Source: an uncultured Planctomycetaceae bacterium | GTDB lineage: Bacteria > Planctomycetota > Planctomycetia > Pirellulales > Pirellulaceae | Assembly: GCA_903927685.1 (NCBI GenBank) | Contig: CAIYOB010001510.1 | Span: 1 to 8,814 of the forward strand | Length of the DNA stretch: 8,814 bases | Direction of reading: 5' to 3' | Shown here: positions 647-8,814 of the stretch, one piece after another | Layout of the letters: the number at the start of each line of letters is the position of its first letter | Numbering within the stretch: position 1 is the first letter of the stretch | The notes under the pieces: generated by a model | The model's database searches: none | The model's input: the letters and a program-made list of their open reading frames with translations, nothing else | What the model was told of the DNA's origin: nothing | Translations under genes and position numbers: made by a program

Positions 647-3400
647 ATGGCAATTGAATCCGAAGACCAACTCGACGCGGCCGTTTCGCGTCTGCAAGCA
701 AGGCTCGACCAGACGATCCAACAGATCGCCGGCCCGGAGGGACTGGCCGCAGTCGTGCAGGTCCGCGAGCTGGCTCAGGCGGCGTACGCTGGCCGCCCGG
801 CGGCGCAGCCGGAACTGACGCTCAGGCTGGCCCAATTGACCGAGGTCGAGCGCCGCGTGGTCGCCCGGGCGTTGTCGATTTTCCTGGACCTGATGAACGT
901 GGCCGAGGATCGGCAGCGCGTGCGGATCTTGCGGGAGCGGGAACGCGCGGCGCATCCCGCGCCGCGGGCCGAGTCGATCCGCGCCGCGGTCGCCCAGTTG
1001 GCGGCCGAGGGTCTGGCAGCCGGCGAGGTCCAGCGTTTGCTCGACCGCCTGGACATCGAATTGGTGCTGACCGCGCATCCGACCGAAGCCAAACGGCGTG
1101 CGATCCGCGGCAAGCTGCGGCGAGTCCGCGAATTGCTGCAGCGGCTCGACGAAGGCGAGCTGTTGCCGCGCGAGGCCGCGGACCTGGACGCGCATCTCCA
1201 GGCGGAACTGACCAAGCTTTGGCAGACCGACTTCATCCGCCCCTGGCCGCCCACCGTCATCCAGGAGGTGCAGCGCGGGTTGAGCATCATGCCGGTGCTG
1301 TGGGAAGTGGTGCCGGACGTCTTGAAGGATTTGCGGCAAGCCCTGGCTGAGTTCTATCCAAAGCAGCGGTTTCGCGTGCCGCCGTTCCTGCGGTTTGCCT
1401 CCTGGATCGGCGGCGATCGCGATGGCCATCCGGGCGTGACGGCCGACGTGACCGAGCAGACGTTGGCTTGGCTGCGCAAAGCGGCCGTGGGCCAGCAGCG
1501 TGAGACCGTCTGCAACTTGTTCGGTTCGTTGAGTCTCTCGGCGCGGCAGGCACCGGTCAGCGAGGAGTTGCACCAGGCGATCGCAACCGCCGTGGCCAAC
1601 TGGCCGGAGTTGGCAGGCCTGCTTGCGGGCATTCCGCCCACCGAAACGTATCGCCGCTGGTTGGTGATCGTGGACTGGCGACTGCACGCCTCCGGCCAAC
1701 TGCGTCCCAGTGCGCCGCCGCCTGCGGGAGCCTACCGCTCCAGTTCCGAACTGGCGGACGACGTGCGGATCATTCAGCGGAGCCTGTCGGGGGCCCACAA
1801 CGACGTGCTGGTGCAGGGCGAGATCCAGCGTTGGCTGGATCAGATCGAAGTCTTCGGCCTGCACCTGGCGCGGCTGGATGTTCGGCAGGATGCCCGGCAC
1901 CACGAGGCGGTGATGACCGAACTGCTGGCGCATGCCGGCGTCGCAGCCAATTTCGCGGCGCTGCCGGAAGCCGATCGCCAGCGGGTTCTTCTGGAGTCTC
2001 TGGCCCGCCCCTGGATCCGGGACTTGACCGCCTTGTCCGACGCGGCTCGGGAAACGCTGGCACTGCTGACTCTGCTGCGGCGCACGCTGAGGACCGGTGG
2101 ACCGGAAACTCTGGGCGGCTACGTGATTAGCATGACGAGGACGGCGAGCGACGTGCTCGCGGTGCTGTGGTTGTGGGAGTGGTCCCGGACGGTCGACGGC
2201 GGCGACCCGCGTGACGCCGCCTTGCATCTGCCGATCATTCCCCTGTTTGAAACCATCGACTATTTGCGGGATGCCTCGACGACGATGGCCGCCTTGCTGG
2301 ACGTGGCCGCCTATCGGTCGTACTTGGAAGCGCAGGGGCAGCGTCAAACGGTCATGATCGGTTACTCGGACAGCACCAAAGACGGCGGCTATCTGGCCGC
2401 CTGTTGGGCCTTGTATCACGCCCAGACGCAGATTCACGAGGTGGCCCTGCAACACGGGGTGGCGGTGACCTTTTTCCATGGCCGCGGCGGTTCGCTGGGA
2501 CGCGGCGGCGGTCCGACGGCCCGCGCCATCCTCTCGCTGCCGGGGGCGACCTTCGACGGCACGCTGCGTCTGACCGAGCAAGGCGAAGTCATGGCGGAGC
2601 GTTACGACGACCTGCAGGTGGCGCATCGACACCTGGAGCAGGTGACGTGGTCGGTCCTGCTGGCCGGCATGCGGACGACCGCCACGGACACGCGCCGTTG
2701 GGAGGAGATCATGCAGTGGTTGGCGGACCGCTCGTTCCAGGCATACCGTCGACTCACCCAACAGCCGGGCTTCGTGGACTTCTTTCGCCACGCGACACCC
2801 ATCGGCGAGATCGAACAACTGCCGATCGGTTCGCGTCCGGCTCGGCGCAAGGCCGGGGGCTCGCTGAGCGACCTGCGCGCGATTCCCTGGGTCTTCTCCT
2901 GGACGCAGATCCGCTGCCTCGTGCCGGCTTGGTACGGCTTCGGCAGTGCCGTGGCGGAACTCCGCGCCGAGTCGCCCCAGCGCTGCCGTGAATTGACGGA
3001 CATGTATCGCCGTTGGCCGTTCTTTCGCGCCTCGGTGGATAACGCCGTGCTGGCGCTGGCCAAGACGAACCTCGCCATCGCCGGGGGCTACTTCCGGCTC
3101 GCCGCCCAGGCGACGGACGGGCCGCAGTTCGCCGCGCTGATCGTCAGCGAGTACCAGCGCTGCTCCGCGGCGGTGCTGGAGGCGACCGGCCAGCCGCGAT
3201 TGTTGGACGACGTGCCTTGGCTGCGGGAATCCATCGCCCGGCGCAGCCCGTTTGTGGACGCACTGAATCTGTTGCAGATCGATTTGTTAAGCCGACTGCG
3301 GGCGGTGGCGGGGGAAGCCACGCCGGACGCCGAGGAGTGGGCGCACCTGATTCGCCTGACCATCCAGGGTGTTGCCGCCGGCATGCGAACCACCGGGTGA
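647..3400 (+). CDS. ppc: Phosphoenolpyruvate carboxylase
   Basis: This enzyme carboxylates PEP with bicarbonate to give oxaloacetate and phosphate, using Mg2+ or Mn2+, and refills the TCA cycle from the cytoplasm. Its 917 residues fit the family (about 880-970), and all bacterial-type PEPC signatures are present in order: LVLTAHPTEAKRR with catalytic His144; FASWIGGDRDGHPGVT around 250-265; IGYSDSTKDGG with Lys578; the glycine-rich loop FFHGRGGSLGRGG with His611, Arg613 and Arg619; LRLTEQGEVMAERY; IGSRPARRKAGG followed by LRAIPWVFSWTQ; and the C-terminal GVAAGMRTTG. Lys806 and Arg866 match E. coli Lys773 and Arg832 of the aspartate inhibitor site, but the E. coli Asn881 position (third from last) is Thr915 here. 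The start is well bounded, because an in-frame TGA at 626-628 lies just upstream and ATG 647 is the next ATG; no close ribosome binding site is seen. The gene looks intact and probably active as the usual tetramer. Confidence 0.98.
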   Translation: MAIESEDQLDAAVSRLQARLDQTIQQIAGPEGLAAVVQVRELAQAAYAGRPAAQPELTLRLAQLTEVERRVVARALSIFLDLMNVAEDRQRVRILRERERAAHPAPRAESIRAAVAQLAAEGLAAGEVQRLLDRLDIELVLTAHPTEAKRRAIRGKLRRVRELLQRLDEGELLPREAADLDAHLQAELTKLWQTDFIRPWPPTVIQEVQRGLSIMPVLWEVVPDVLKDLRQALAEFYPKQRFRVPPFLRFASWIGGDRDGHPGVTADVTEQTLAWLRKAAVGQQRETVCNLFGSLSLSARQAPVSEELHQAIATAVANWPELAGLLAGIPPTETYRRWLVIVDWRLHASGQLRPSAPPPAGAYRSSSELADDVRIIQRSLSGAHNDVLVQGEIQRWLDQIEVFGLHLARLDVRQDARHHEAVMTELLAHAGVAANFAALPEADRQRVLLESLARPWIRDLTALSDAARETLALLTLLRRTLRTGGPETLGGYVISMTRTASDVLAVLWLWEWSRTVDGGDPRDAALHLPIIPLFETIDYLRDASTTMAALLDVAAYRSYLEAQGQRQTVMIGYSDSTKDGGYLAACWALYHAQTQIHEVALQHGVAVTFFHGRGGSLGRGGGPTARAILSLPGATFDGTLRLTEQGEVMAERYDDLQVAHRHLEQVTWSVLLAGMRTTATDTRRWEEIMQWLADRSFQAYRRLTQQPGFVDFFRHATPIGEIEQLPIGSRPARRKAGGSLSDLRAIPWVFSWTQIRCLVPAWYGFGSAVAELRAESPQRCRELTDMYRRWPFFRASVDNAVLALAKTNLAIAGGYFRLAAQATDGPQFAALIVSEYQRCSAAVLEATGQPRLLDDVPWLRESIARRSPFVDALNLLQIDLLSRLRAVAGEATPDAEEWAHLIRLTIQGVAAGMRTTG

Positions 3401-3791: not shown

Positions 3792-3798
3792 ATCTGCC

Positions 3799-5148
3799 AT
3801 GAAGACGACTTTGCAGCGATGGTTGGCCGGGATCGGGATGGTATTGGTGTCGCTCGCCGTCTGTCGCGCCGAAGATTGGCCACAGTGGCTGGGGCCGAAT
3901 CGCGATAGCGTTTGGCGGGAAACCGGGATTATCGAGCGGTTTCCCGACGGCGGGCTGCCTGTTCTGTGGCGGGCGCCGGTCGCCGGTGGCTACGCGGGCC
4001 CAGCCGTCGCGGACGGACGCGTGTATGTCACCGACTATCTGGCCGAAGGCGATCGGACGCCGGATCCGAACAGCCGCAGCAGACTGCAGGGCCGGGAACG
4101 GGTCTGGTGCTTGGCCGCGACGGACGGCGCGGTGCTGTGGAAGCATGAATACGATTGCGCCTACGACATTTCGTTCGCTGCCGGACCGCGGGCCACGCCG
4201 ACGGTCGATGGCGAGCGAGTCTACACGCTGGGGGCCCAAGGCGACTTGCGCTGCCTGAACACGGCGGACGGCTCCCTCGTCTGGTCGCACAACTTCCAGC
4301 ACGATTATCAAGCGGCGACGCCGCTCTGGGGTTATTGCGGGCATCCGCTGGTCGACGGCGACAAGCTGTTTTGCGTGGTCGGGGGTGAGGGCAGCATCGC
4401 GGTGGCGTTTGACAAGCGGACCGGCAAGGAACTGTGGCGGGCCCTGACGGCCAAGGAGCAGGCGTATTGCCCGCCCACCATGATCACCGCGGGGGGCAAG
4501 CGGCAACTGGTCATCTGGCATGCCGAAGCGATCAACGGCTTGGATCCTCAGACGGGCCAGGTCTATTGGTCGGTCCCGTTGGATGCGAACTATGCGATGG
4601 GGATCGCGACGCCGCGGCAACTGGGCCCATACCTGTTCGCCGGCGGGATTGTGAACAAGTCCGTACTGCTGCGACTGGGCAACGAACCGCCCACGGCCGA
4701 GGTCGTTTGGCGCGGGGCCAGGGGCAAGGGCCTCGGCCCGGTCATGGTCACGCCGTTTCTGGAAGGCGAGTACCTGTACGGTGTCGACGGCAAGGGTGAA
4801 CTGCGCTGCGTCGCGCTGGCCAGCGGCGAGCAACTGTGGACCACCTACGCGGCGACGACCACGAGCGGACGGCCCGAGCATTCGGCTTGCGCCTTTCTGG
4901 TCAAGCACGGCGAGCGGTTCTTCCTGGCCAGCGAAACGGGCGAACTGATCATCGCCCGGTTGACGCCGGACAAGTACAGTGAAATCAGCCGCACCAAAAT
5001 CATGGAACCGACCGGACTCGCGTTTGGCCGCAGCGTCTGGTGGAGCCATCCCGCCTTTGCCAACCGCTGCGTGTACGCCCGCAACGATCGGGAACTGATC
5101 TGCGTGTCGCTGGCCGCCGAGACGGTGAAAGTCCTCGGCAGTGATTGA
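3799..5148 (+). CDS. Secreted PQQ-like beta-propeller repeat protein
   Basis: This 449-residue protein is probably exported through Sec. It has a basic start (MKTTLQR), a hydrophobic core (about residues 8-21) and a likely signal peptidase I site after Cys-Arg-Ala24; the Cys22 context (LAVC) is a poor lipobox. The mature end DWPQWLGPNRDSVWRE is typical of planctomycete propeller proteins. Blade repeats of the PQQ-like/BamB type, ending in patterns such as TDGAVLWKHEY, recur around residues 66-117 (AGPAVADGRVYV ... VLWKHEY), 131-166 (RATPTVDGERVYTL ... LVWSHNF), 181-214 (GHPLVDGDKLFCV ... ELWRA), 225-260 (PPTMITAGGKRQLVI ... VYWSVPL), 318-350 (TPFLEGEYLYGV ... QLWTTYA) and 361-435. No catalytic residues or c-type haem motif (CxxCH) of quinoprotein dehydrogenases were seen, so it is more likely a scaffold or binding protein than an alcohol dehydrogenase. 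The substrate or partner is unknown. A membrane-anchored protein follows 40 bases later and is probably co-transcribed. Confidence 0.92.
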   Translation: MKTTLQRWLAGIGMVLVSLAVCRAEDWPQWLGPNRDSVWRETGIIERFPDGGLPVLWRAPVAGGYAGPAVADGRVYVTDYLAEGDRTPDPNSRSRLQGRERVWCLAATDGAVLWKHEYDCAYDISFAAGPRATPTVDGERVYTLGAQGDLRCLNTADGSLVWSHNFQHDYQAATPLWGYCGHPLVDGDKLFCVVGGEGSIAVAFDKRTGKELWRALTAKEQAYCPPTMITAGGKRQLVIWHAEAINGLDPQTGQVYWSVPLDANYAMGIATPRQLGPYLFAGGIVNKSVLLRLGNEPPTAEVVWRGARGKGLGPVMVTPFLEGEYLYGVDGKGELRCVALASGEQLWTTYAATTTSGRPEHSACAFLVKHGERFFLASETGELIIARLTPDKYSEISRTKIMEPTGLAFGRSVWWSHPAFANRCVYARNDRELICVSLAAETVKVLGSD

Positions 5149-5176
5149 ATCGTAGCTCCTCACCGAATTGGCTCTT

Positions 5177-5181
5177 GGGAG
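5177..5181 (+). promoter_or_regulatory. Ribosome binding site deciding a GTG start
   Basis: GGGAG stands 7 bases before GTG 5189. The longer alternative, TTG 5168, has no purine-rich site at a useful distance and would add MALGRRK before the membrane helix. The site therefore favours GTG 5189, although the upstream basic residues would also suit a membrane anchor. Confidence 0.55.
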
Positions 5182-5188
5182 ACGGAAA

Positions 5189-5857
5189 GTGGATGCCTTG
5201 TGGTTTTTCGGGTTTGTGGCAGTGTTCCTGGTCTTGGGCGTCATCGCGACGGTAATCTCCAGCCGCAACGAGCAGAAACGCAGCGAAGCTTGGAAAGCCG
5301 TCGCGACGCGGCCCGGGATGCAGTTTCTGGGCGAAGGCAACTCGGTGCTGTCCCGGTTTGGCCAGTTGAAGATGTTCCAGACCGGACGGAAGCAACGCGT
5401 TTGGAACGTGATCGCCGTCGAGTCCGGAGAAATCCGGATCGCGGTCGGGGATTTTCGTTTTATCACGGGCAGCGGCAAGAATTCGCATACCCACAATCAG
5501 ACGATTTGTGCGCTGGAAAGCGACCGGTTCAGTGTACCTCACTGCCGCCTGCGTCCGGAAGCGAAGTGGTTGGATGCCCTCGGCTCTCTATTCGGCGGAC
5601 AGGACATTGATTTCTCCGAGGACCCGCAATTCTCCGCCGCGTTTGTGTTGCAGGGTGAGGATGAACCGGCGATCCGGCGGATTTTCAACGCCGAAGTTCG
5701 AGCGTGGTTTGCCGAACGGGCGGGCCGGGGATTCGTTTTCGAGGCCCGCGGCCACAAGCTCGTCTTTCATCGGGGCAAGCGGATCCCACCCGACGAGGCT
5801 CCCGCGTTGATGGACCAGGCACTGCAGATCATGAAGCTGCTGGCCGGCCAGCCGTAG
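5189..5857 (+). CDS. Single-pass membrane-anchored protein of uncharacterised family
   Basis: This 222-residue protein (229 if translation begins at TTG 5168) opens with a strongly hydrophobic segment at about residues 4-23 (LWFFGFVAVFLVLGVIATVI), followed by the basic, polar SSRNEQKRSEAWK. That fits one N-terminal transmembrane helix with a soluble domain; which side the domain faces is not settled by the sequence. The soluble part contains a beta-rich stretch (70-95), THNQTICALESDRFSVPHCRLRPE (101-124), then GGQDIDFSEDPQFSAAFVLQGEDE (136-159) and a helical C terminus. The pattern of a DIDF motif followed by FS, a hydrophobic stretch, QGEDE and then IRRIFN matches small uncharacterised proteins I recall from several high-GC bacteria, but I know of no function. 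No catalytic motif is evident. It lies 40 bases after the exported beta-propeller gene on the same strand, suggesting a shared transcript and an envelope-linked role. Confidence 0.82.
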   Translation: MDALWFFGFVAVFLVLGVIATVISSRNEQKRSEAWKAVATRPGMQFLGEGNSVLSRFGQLKMFQTGRKQRVWNVIAVESGEIRIAVGDFRFITGSGKNSHTHNQTICALESDRFSVPHCRLRPEAKWLDALGSLFGGQDIDFSEDPQFSAAFVLQGEDEPAIRRIFNAEVRAWFAERAGRGFVFEARGHKLVFHRGKRIPPDEAPALMDQALQIMKLLAGQP

Positions 5858-5890: not shown

Positions 5891-5960
5891 GCGACCCAAC
5901 GGGGAGCGCGGGGCACGGGATCCGGCGTGGTTGCGAGCCAAATCGCCCCCGTTGGGTCGC
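5891..5960. repeat. 14-base perfect inverted repeat
   Basis: GCGACCCAACGGGG at 5891-5904 is the exact reverse complement of CCCCGTTGGGTCGC at 5947-5960, with 42 bases between. The right arm is also the start of the first 27-base direct repeat. A second hairpin overlaps the cluster: GGTCGCCG at 5985-5992 pairs with CGGCGACC at 6012-6019. Transcribed, the region would form one of several alternative stem-loops; as DNA it resembles a small palindromic intergenic element. Confidence 0.8.
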
Positions 5961-6004
5961 CGTCAGACGATAGCGATCCCGTTGGGTCGCCGTCAGACGA
6001 TAGC
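5948..6004. repeat. Two 27-base direct repeats with a 30-base period
   Basis: Bases 5948-5974 and 5978-6004 are identical. Each starts CCCGTTGGGTCGCC, continues with the near-palindrome CGTCAGACG and ends TAGC; the spacer is GAT. Only two copies are present and the spacer is just 3 bases, so this is not a CRISPR array. The unit looks like a short intergenic repeat that may be dispersed in the genome, or a paired protein-binding site in front of the downstream gene. Confidence 0.85.
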
Positions 6005-6135: not shown

Positions 6136-8814
6136 ATGAGTTTTCGATTGCGAATCCGTCGGCGAAAGTCCGTATCAGAAAAGCGTAAGTTGCGACAGCG
6201 AAATGCCTTGCGGGAACGGCGGACCGAACAGCTCGAGAGCCGGTGCCTGATGACCGGAGCTGCCGAACTGGTGCCGGAAATTGCGTTCCTGTCCGCCGCC
6301 GCGGATTTCGAACCGGCTGGCAACATGGAGGTCGAAGTCGGCTGGGCGGGCCTCGCGGCCATGACGGGCGGAACGGACGAACTCGTGCCAGCCGAAGACT
6401 GGAGCCGGCTGGCTGAGGCAATGCGAACGACTCTGCCGACGCCATCGCCCTGGCAGAATCAGAACAACCCGCTCGACGTGGACGCCGATGGCAGGGCAAC
6501 ACCCCGAGACGCGCTGTTGGTGATCAACCAGCTGAATGCCGGCACCCAGGTTCTATCGCCCGAGTCCGGCTCTCGCTTGGCGTTTGTCGACGTCAATGGA
6601 GATCTCATTGTCACGCCGAGGGATGCCCTGGAACTGGTCAATGCCCTCAACATCCCGCCCGCCGCTGGCGAGGCGACTGTCGAGGGCGGACTCACGACCG
6701 CTTTGCCCGGCGGCGAAAACTCGCTGTCGGAAGACGCGGGCCGCCAGACGTCTCTGCCGTCCACCGAGAGTCCGCTGCCCAGCAACTTGCTGGCTGCAGC
6801 CGTTCCGTCGGCCCTCGTGCCAGCGGATCCGCCGGACGGCAAGACGAGCATCAGCTACTTGGACGAGCCCTTCGCCAACTACTCCGCTGGGTTCAACGGC
6901 GTGCGGTACGTCAAATGCCACATCCTGACATCGGACCCGGCTACGGTCTATTTCCAGGACTCGGTCAAGTACCTGTACCACTACGATTTTGCGACGGCTC
7001 GCCTGGAGCCGTTCTTGAACATGACTCGCGAGCAGTTCGATGCGGTCTCCCTGCATCTGGCCGGCCAGCAGGTGGTCATGGCCACGGTGTTGATGTCCCC
7101 GGACGGGAAAGAACTCGCCGTCCAACTGGTTGGACACGACGCCTACCCCCGCGAGGATGTTGCGGCCTGGATTCAGACCATCGTCGCCGCGGTGCAGAGC
7201 GATACCCCCTTGACCGTGCTGTACATGCCCGCTTACGAACAGGCGGCCGCCGCCGAGGCGGATCGCAGCTGGTTCGCTTCCCAGGGCATCACCGTCGCTG
7301 ATTCCGCCCGTTGGGCGCGGGGAAACGTCACCTATGCCGAAGGCTGGGCCACGGGCCGCCTGGTGCAGATCCCCGCCGCGGACATCAAGGCCGCGTATGG
7401 CGACGGTCGTCTCCGGCCCACCGACATCCTGTTGCTGACCGACGGAGTCCCGGCGGAGGTGCCGTACGTCCGGGGCATCATTACGCTGACTCCCGCGACG
7501 CCGAACTCGCACGTCGCAATTCTGGCTCGCAACCAGCAACTGCCGTTTGCCTGGGTGCAGGACGCCGCGGAACAACAGCGGATCCTGCAACTCGCCGGCC
7601 AGTCGGTGCTGCTGCGGGCGAGCCTCGGGCGGGTAGCCGTGTCGCGGCTGGATGCCCCACTCACGCCGTCCTCGGTGGCCGACCAACTTGCGGCGCTGCA
7701 GACGCCCGCTCGGGCGAACGTCATTCCCACCGCGGAATACGGCAAGTGGCTCGAGGACGCGACCGGCCTGACGCCAGACCAGATCGAGTACTTTGGCGGC
7801 AAAGCCGCGAACTACGGCCTGCTGCGGCGGACGATCCCCGACAACTCCCAGCGGGCGATGGCGTTCTCGTTTGACCTGTGGAACGCGTTCATGTCCAATC
7901 TGCATCCGACGACCGGCCGGACACTGCGGGAGGAAATCGACGCTCGGCTGGGCAGTTTCTCTTACCCGCCCGACATGACGCTGGCCCGTCAGAAGCTGGC
8001 CGAGGTCAATACGCTGATCCGCAAGACGGTCAAGTGGACGGAGGCGCAGAAGACGCGGATCCTCGACGAATTGATCGCCGCGTTTCCGGACGTGCCGCAC
8101 GACCAGTTCTTGCGGTTTCGCAGTTCCAGCAATGCGGAGGATTCCCAGGAGTTGACCGGCGCCGGCCTGTACGACAGCTTTAGCGGTTGCATCGCCGACG
8201 ATACCGACGCCGACACCAAGGGGCCATCCCACGCCGACCCGAACGAACCTGACGAAAAGGGGGTGCTGCGGGCGATCGAAAAAGTCTTCGCCAGCTTCTA
8301 CAACGAGAACGCGTGGCTGGAACGGCTGCGGCATGGCGTCCGCGAACAGGACACCGGCATGGCGATCCTGGTGCATCACAATTTCCCGGACGAGTTGGAG
8401 ATGGCCAACGGAGTCGTCACCTTCAAGTTCACCCGGTCGCAGTGGGGCGATTACCAGGAGGTCAGCTATGCGGCCAGCATCGTGACCCAGTTGGGCGCCC
8501 TCAGCGTCACCAATCCGGAAGGCGGCGCCATCGCCGAGGAAGTCAATGCCTTCTTCGGTCCGGGACAGGTCCCGTACCTGTACGTGCGCACCCCCTCGAC
8601 CTTGGTCCCGATCGGCGGCACCGTGATGACGTGGGAAAGCGATTACACCGAACTGATGCAGCTGATCGCCCGCGTCGCGGAAGGCTACGCCGAACAGTAT
8701 CCGGACAAATCCGAGTTCACGCTCGACCTCGAGTTCAAGCGGATGACCCCGGGCGAGTTGATCGTCAAGCAAGTCCGCGAGATTCCCACGGCCCAGTCGC
8801 AGCTGACCAAGCCC
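6136..8814 (+). CDS. Exported dockerin-containing PEP/pyruvate-binding dikinase-like protein, 3' end missing
   Basis: The frame is open for 893 codons and runs off the window end, so the C terminus is missing. Residues 1-32 are very basic and lead to EQLESRCLMTG (31-41), a variant of the planctomycete LEPR-XLL N-terminal motif of large surface or secreted proteins. Two dockerin type I calcium loops follow: DVDADGRATPRD (114-125) and DVNGDLIVTPRD (152-163), each with acidic or Asn ligands at loop positions 1, 3, 5 and 12. A low-complexity linker covers about 170-234. Residues 235-395 resemble the N-terminal region of a bacterial PEP/pyruvate-binding family. A swivel domain (about 396-500) carries TPNSHVAILAR with His459 as the probable phosphohistidine. 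A PPDK-type ATP-grasp domain starts at FGGKAANYGLL (Lys556) and includes LRFRSSSNAED (Arg660, Arg662), TGAGLYDSF, an acidic insert (687-708), LDLEFK (Glu866) and KQVRE (Gln879, Arg881). These residues match the ATP site of PPDK/PEP synthase, so activity is plausible. The phosphate acceptor is unknown; no PEP-binding TIM barrel lies before the window end. Confidence 0.9.
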   Translation, partial: MSFRLRIRRRKSVSEKRKLRQRNALRERRTEQLESRCLMTGAAELVPEIAFLSAAADFEPAGNMEVEVGWAGLAAMTGGTDELVPAEDWSRLAEAMRTTLPTPSPWQNQNNPLDVDADGRATPRDALLVINQLNAGTQVLSPESGSRLAFVDVNGDLIVTPRDALELVNALNIPPAAGEATVEGGLTTALPGGENSLSEDAGRQTSLPSTESPLPSNLLAAAVPSALVPADPPDGKTSISYLDEPFANYSAGFNGVRYVKCHILTSDPATVYFQDSVKYLYHYDFATARLEPFLNMTREQFDAVSLHLAGQQVVMATVLMSPDGKELAVQLVGHDAYPREDVAAWIQTIVAAVQSDTPLTVLYMPAYEQAAAAEADRSWFASQGITVADSARWARGNVTYAEGWATGRLVQIPAADIKAAYGDGRLRPTDILLLTDGVPAEVPYVRGIITLTPATPNSHVAILARNQQLPFAWVQDAAEQQRILQLAGQSVLLRASLGRVAVSRLDAPLTPSSVADQLAALQTPARANVIPTAEYGKWLEDATGLTPDQIEYFGGKAANYGLLRRTIPDNSQRAMAFSFDLWNAFMSNLHPTTGRTLREEIDARLGSFSYPPDMTLARQKLAEVNTLIRKTVKWTEAQKTRILDELIAAFPDVPHDQFLRFRSSSNAEDSQELTGAGLYDSFSGCIADDTDADTKGPSHADPNEPDEKGVLRAIEKVFASFYNENAWLERLRHGVREQDTGMAILVHHNFPDELEMANGVVTFKFTRSQWGDYQEVSYAASIVTQLGALSVTNPEGGAIAEEVNAFFGPGQVPYLYVRTPSTLVPIGGTVMTWESDYTELMQLIARVAEGYAEQYPDKSEFTLDLEFKRMTPGELIVKQVREIPTAQSQLTKP

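Follow-up and report, generated by a model that had tools for sequence, protein, structure and literature searches.

A putative exported phosphohistidine dikinase from a planctomycete belongs to a large planctomycete and verrucomicrobial family

What would a phosphohistidine dikinase do on a protein that appears to be built for export? To our knowledge, such dikinases have been described as cytoplasmic or plastid enzymes, and ATP is scarce outside cells, which counts against a dikinase acting beyond the cytoplasm. The question arises from a gene in an 8,814-nucleotide stretch of DNA from an uncultured planctomycete (the window), in which an initial annotation had recognized a dikinase core on an export-type protein. 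The gene starts on the forward strand with an ATG at position 6136, with GGGGAG a short way upstream, and its frame is still open at the window edge (6136..8814, 893 residues). The annotation had called for the complete gene; a protein search supplied it as P0001, which is identical to the window protein over the overlap and extends to 1443 residues from residue 39, giving a full length of about 1481 residues. From conserved residues, domain order and export-type features across the family, we propose that the product of this gene is a phosphohistidine dikinase of the extracytoplasmic space that would pass phosphate from ATP via His459 to a surface acceptor, as one member of a large planctomycete and verrucomicrobial family, a reading that we consider slightly more likely than not.

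All features lie on the forward strand. A very basic N terminus leads into LESRCLM (residues 33–39, 6232..6252), a probable export tag, followed by two dockerin type I repeats detected by Pfam (residues 114–172, 6475..6651); both the tag and the two dockerin loops named in the annotation were located in the sequence. A linker connects the repeats to an alpha/beta domain conserved in the family (residues 243–397, 6862..7326), delineated by alignment and a predicted model. Next come the swivelling phosphohistidine domain (residues 396–529, 7321..7722), with the predicted phospho-carrier His459 in PNSHVAILAR (codon 7510..7512), and a Pfam-detected ATP-grasp domain of the PPDK_N type (residues 533–889, 7732..8802), the Pfam matches themselves spanning 434–504 for the swivel and then 552–760 for the ATP-grasp. 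The latter contains Lys556 in a GGK motif (7801..7803), Arg662 in FRSSSNAED (8119..8121), and the predicted metal and phosphate ligands Glu866, Gln879 and Arg881 in LDLEFK...KQVR (8731..8778). Past the ATP-grasp, outside the window, P0001 continues with a further domain conserved in relatives, for which no Pfam family recurs among 20 relatives, and then with RTX-type repeats (PF00353 in Pfam; NCBIfam RTX-type matches at about 1278–1363). P0001 aligns with its relatives (alignment A1) and has the family's build of N-terminal domain, swivel, ATP-grasp and C-terminal domain.

Is this core equipped for catalysis? The six residues on which the annotation had built its case, H459, K556, R662, E866, Q879 and R881, are encoded where it had read them and are invariant in an alignment of 120 of 120 relatives, listed from at least 261 matches. 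R730, together with E668 and D669 in RSSSNAED, is equally invariant there. The ATP-grasp domain superposes on dikinases that use ATP. A genome search also revealed a twin family whose members are shorter (about 650–870 residues as called), 25–33% identical and without the C-terminal domain. Among the best 120 of at least 3003 matches to one twin, the histidine, the GGK lysine, the RSS arginine and the E, Q and R are kept in 119–120 of 120; the one row that departs has a gap in place of the last three residues. Relatives are under purifying selection, with Ka/Ks ratios of 0.14–0.22 in five family pairs and 0.08–0.09 in two twin-family pairs.

Characterized enzymes indicate what some of these residues may do. 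In the rifampin phosphotransferase study (PMC4844700), the lysine of the GGK motif (Lys22) is essential and Arg117 is required to phosphorylate the drug, the Arg117Ala variant retaining ATP cleavage with drug phosphorylation gone; Glu297 is dispensable, its replacement having left activity. For HpeH, PMC12167813 gives the histidine as essential. By motif and position, R662 would correspond to Arg117 and E866 likely to Glu297. Invariance of all the named residues is therefore not proof that each is needed, because the Glu297 replacement in rifampin phosphotransferase kept activity.

What might receive the phosphate? The N-terminal family domain has 14 invariant columns in a 22-row alignment (A4, 22 of 31 pieces; alignment A3 used 20 of 24, and an earlier one, A2, contained wrong-strand pieces from L010, L016, L021, L033, L034 and L035). 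Its predicted model is an alpha/beta fold with a pLDDT of 90.7, and a structural search with this model gave no clear match. In the twin family the domain shares K58 and H80 with the window family, and other positions are fixed to different residues: FQDS becomes MNT (Q72 to M, D73 to N, S74 to T), Q130 becomes D and Y163 becomes H (best 120 of at least 3003). We place the candidate acceptor site in the N-terminal domain because the twins share the chemistry residues but differ on the surface of this domain; invariant chemistry together with changed N-terminal residues is as expected if this domain chooses the acceptor. As the acceptor itself, the likeliest candidate would be a polysaccharide, either extracellular or on the cell surface, or else some other small molecule that is exported.

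The same comparison bears on two other accounts of an exported protein. One holds that the protein is catalytically retired, its ATP-grasp and swivel domains being kept as a binding or structural surface module. An ATP supply outside the cell is not known, adhesion-type domains are appended in family members, and the window protein scores low with Pfam (41 bits for PPDK_N, compared with 91–120 bits in twin-family and GWD-like proteins), all of which would suit such a module; yet retired enzymes usually lose their chemistry residues, whereas here all of them are invariant in both families while acceptor-side residues differ, and we judge retirement unlikely. The other supposes an active enzyme with water as its acceptor, an ecto-nucleotidase yielding AMP and phosphate for uptake, or a phosphoryl donor other than ATP. 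We consider this quite improbable, as so conserved an N-terminal domain suggests a specific partner, even though it would fit the scavenging of phosphate in water and dikinase half-reactions can act as ATP pyrophosphatases, as the Arg117Ala rifampin phosphotransferase illustrates (PMC4844700).

A third account, in which the dikinase acts in the cytoplasm and its export features have been misread, depends on how the family begins. Signal-peptide-like starts were scored with a crude rule of our own, not SignalP, that looks within 50 residues for a hydrophobic uncharged stretch behind a basic residue. They occur in 88 of 120 listed members of the family and, in the twin family, in 104 of 120 sequences, compared with 18 of 1200 internal control 50-mers; a looser rule gave 103 of 120, 116 of 120 and 141 of 1200, respectively. 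The annotation's notion of a dikinase core on an export-type protein is thereby borne out among relatives with the same core. Several of the 32 of 120 listed family members that fail the stricter rule start inside the gene (e.g., P0003, P0005 and P0011) or resemble signal peptides that narrowly miss it. The window protein has its basic LESRCLM start in place of a classical signal peptide, and its close relatives P0002, P0007, P0008 and P0009, four members beyond the 88, start with LESRQLM or LERRELM. We take LExRxLL/M to be a planctomycete tag; LESRCLM itself had no NCBIfam match. Pfam further detects RTX repeats, dockerins, a beta-helix (PF13229) and LamG (PF13385) appended in family members. 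These sequence features favor a predicted export strongly for the family and fairly for the window member, whose one candidate signal is the LESRCLM start. The cytoplasm is where known dikinases obtain their ATP, a classical signal peptide is missing from the window protein, and GWD-like proteins from the same verrucomicrobial order start without an obvious signal, but most members of the two families have signal-like starts, fusions of this kind occur among family members, and a cytoplasmic site of action appears very unlikely to us.

The dockerins, part of the domain combination that the annotation stressed, are incidental: PF00404 occurs in 2 of 120 listed relatives and is absent from P0002–P0011, the ten nearest among the matches listed. 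A search for the same architecture, as the annotation had suggested, thus recovers the core and the export-type starts but hardly the dockerins. Novelty had been sought in one domain combination; it lies instead in a large, apparently exported family (at least 261 proteins at E 1e-3, and at least 3003 with a twin as query) whose members look able to act as dikinases in a manner reminiscent of the plant enzymes that phosphorylate starch.

For an extracytoplasmic dikinase, we propose the following cycle, each catalytic step of which is modeled on known dikinases. The ATP-grasp domain would bind Mg-ATP; the swivel domain would dock, His459 would take up phosphate, and AMP and inorganic phosphate would be released. 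The swivel domain could then turn to the N-terminal domain, which would hold the acceptor, perhaps a surface glycan, and allow its phosphorylation. The tag, the dockerins and the RTX calcium repeats beyond the window may anchor the enzyme to the cell surface or within a matrix. Candidate sources of ATP outside the cell are release by neighbors, lysis or a periplasmic supply. For the window protein, activity, ATP as donor, site of action and acceptor are all predictions of this model.

How does this build compare with that of known dikinases? PEP synthase and PPDK share the PPDK_N ATP-grasp with the window protein, but there the ATP-grasp precedes the swivel, whereas here it follows the histidine domain; a profile comparison with 2ols aligns in reversed order, as a weak match (E 0.019). 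A GG before the histidine is a feature of PPS-type swivel domains according to PMC12167813. By alignment, none of the 120 listed family members has the GG loop ahead of its catalytic histidine, a count that covers all 120 where a regular expression for the histidine pattern matched 99; nor does any of 120 twins have it (best 120 of at least 3003). The PEP/pyruvate barrel is not among the Pfam matches of the window part or of P0001, and NCBIfam PEP_synth scores 16.3 bits on the window protein against a cut-off of 739.75. The annotation's PPDK-type reading thus holds for the ATP-grasp domain and fails for the overall build. Rifampin phosphotransferase differs as well: its ATP-grasp comes first, as PMC12167813 and PMC4844700 describe it, and second in the window protein, in which a rifampin-binding domain was not identified and NCBIfam RIF_Ptrans_rph reaches 15.9 bits, far below its cut-off of 999. 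The two-component aryl dikinases HpeHI, CreHI and PpsAB consist of two chains, use phenol substrates and are intracellular, unlike the single, export-type chain described here.

The closest resemblance in layout is to the glucan, water dikinases GWD and PWD and to two GWD-like references, L069 and L070, from the verrucomicrobial genomes G439 and G442. All have the histidine domain ahead of a PPDK_N ATP-grasp on its C-terminal side, lack the GG loop before the histidine, and share with the window protein a GAGLYDS/GAGLYES-type motif following RSS.NxED. L069 has GWD1_pHisD at 733–842 (86 bits) and then PPDK_N at 875–1183, and L070 has them at 433–541 (91 bits) and 580–888; in the window protein, by contrast, GWD1_pHisD reaches 17.7 bits, below the Pfam cut-off of 27, so that its phosphohistidine domain falls under the Pfam cut-offs. 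The window protein also differs from GWD and PWD in its extra domain after the ATP-grasp and in its export features. Plant GWDs carry carbohydrate-binding domains N-terminally and the dikinase domain C-terminally (PMC6805951); in the window part, no carbohydrate-binding module is among the Pfam matches up to E 1. The GWD mechanism, as given in PMC7569903, passes the beta-phosphate of ATP to the histidine and on to glucan, and the gamma-phosphate to water.

Phylogeny of the ATP-grasp domain suggests a kinship of the window family (family A) with GWD that is weak and unstable between trees. In a 24-row tree, families A and B (the twins) fall on one side of a branch (100/98) and the GWD-like rows adjoin them (86/75); in a 39-row tree, the GWD-like rows group with PPS/PPDK instead (87/98). 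The larger tree included L091, L092 and L102 (wrong strand) and L082 (broken frame), and the smaller one omitted these four, the long-branched L068 and, of the 20 rows from family A, 10. In L069 (2996–6556, forward strand), the GWD-like dikinase is preceded by a fused N-terminal TIM barrel of xylose-isomerase-like type (AP_endonuc_2, 82 bits).

What would such enzymes mean for these bacteria? A large conserved dikinase family with export features would raise the question of ATP-driven extracellular chemistry in a major bacterial group, and it may offer a bacterial counterpart to starch phosphorylation, on surface or environmental glycans. We speculate, as a doubtful but conceivable extension, that planctomycetes and verrucomicrobia phosphorylate a polysaccharide or other surface polymer outside the cytoplasm by a histidine relay, through exported GWD-like dikinases; if true, ATP would have to be supplied outside the cytoplasm in a regulated way, and bacterial surface glycans would bear a phosphate mark. 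No paper on exported dikinases of this type was found in a literature search that reached few subscription journals.

By source name, some family hits are from Pirellulales, Sedimentisphaerales and Verrucomicrobia; entries in the twin search include Rubripirellula, Mariniblastus, Pirellulaceae and Verrucomicrobiia, and any overlap between the family and twin lists is counted in both. Where the source gives a label, it reads 'PEP/pyruvate-binding domain-containing protein' or 'hypothetical protein'. Matches were found in 5 of 387 genomes (three of them strong) drawn evenly from the phylum of G001, the genome of a relative, and in 83 of 293 genomes of G001's order; 69 of the latter have E below 1e-70, and the remaining ones are twin-family or GWD-like proteins or fragments. 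Copy numbers are lower bounds, because scoring was limited to two candidates in each genome. Three family copies contain internal stop codons (G567:C5:256693–259422, G557:C9:31623–33611 and G576:C82:49413–51149), possibly as decaying genes or assembly errors.

Gene context names no acceptor, because no neighbor recurs among 24 family loci, nor, beyond pairs, among 10 twin-type loci. Upstream of the dikinase gene, the window encodes a PEP carboxylase (647–3400), a PQQ/BamB-type propeller (3796–5148) and an unnamed 229-residue protein (5168–5857), and the gap before the gene holds two exact 25-base direct copies (5949–5973 and 5979–6003), 30 bases apart. Propeller genes, which are common in these bacteria, also adjoin two twin-family genes (the L064, L065 pair). 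Some twins carry EF-hands before the dikinase core, as Pfam detects in L059 (3949–6135), and in L059, L062 and L064 a small signal-peptide-bearing protein is encoded just downstream of the twin-family gene.
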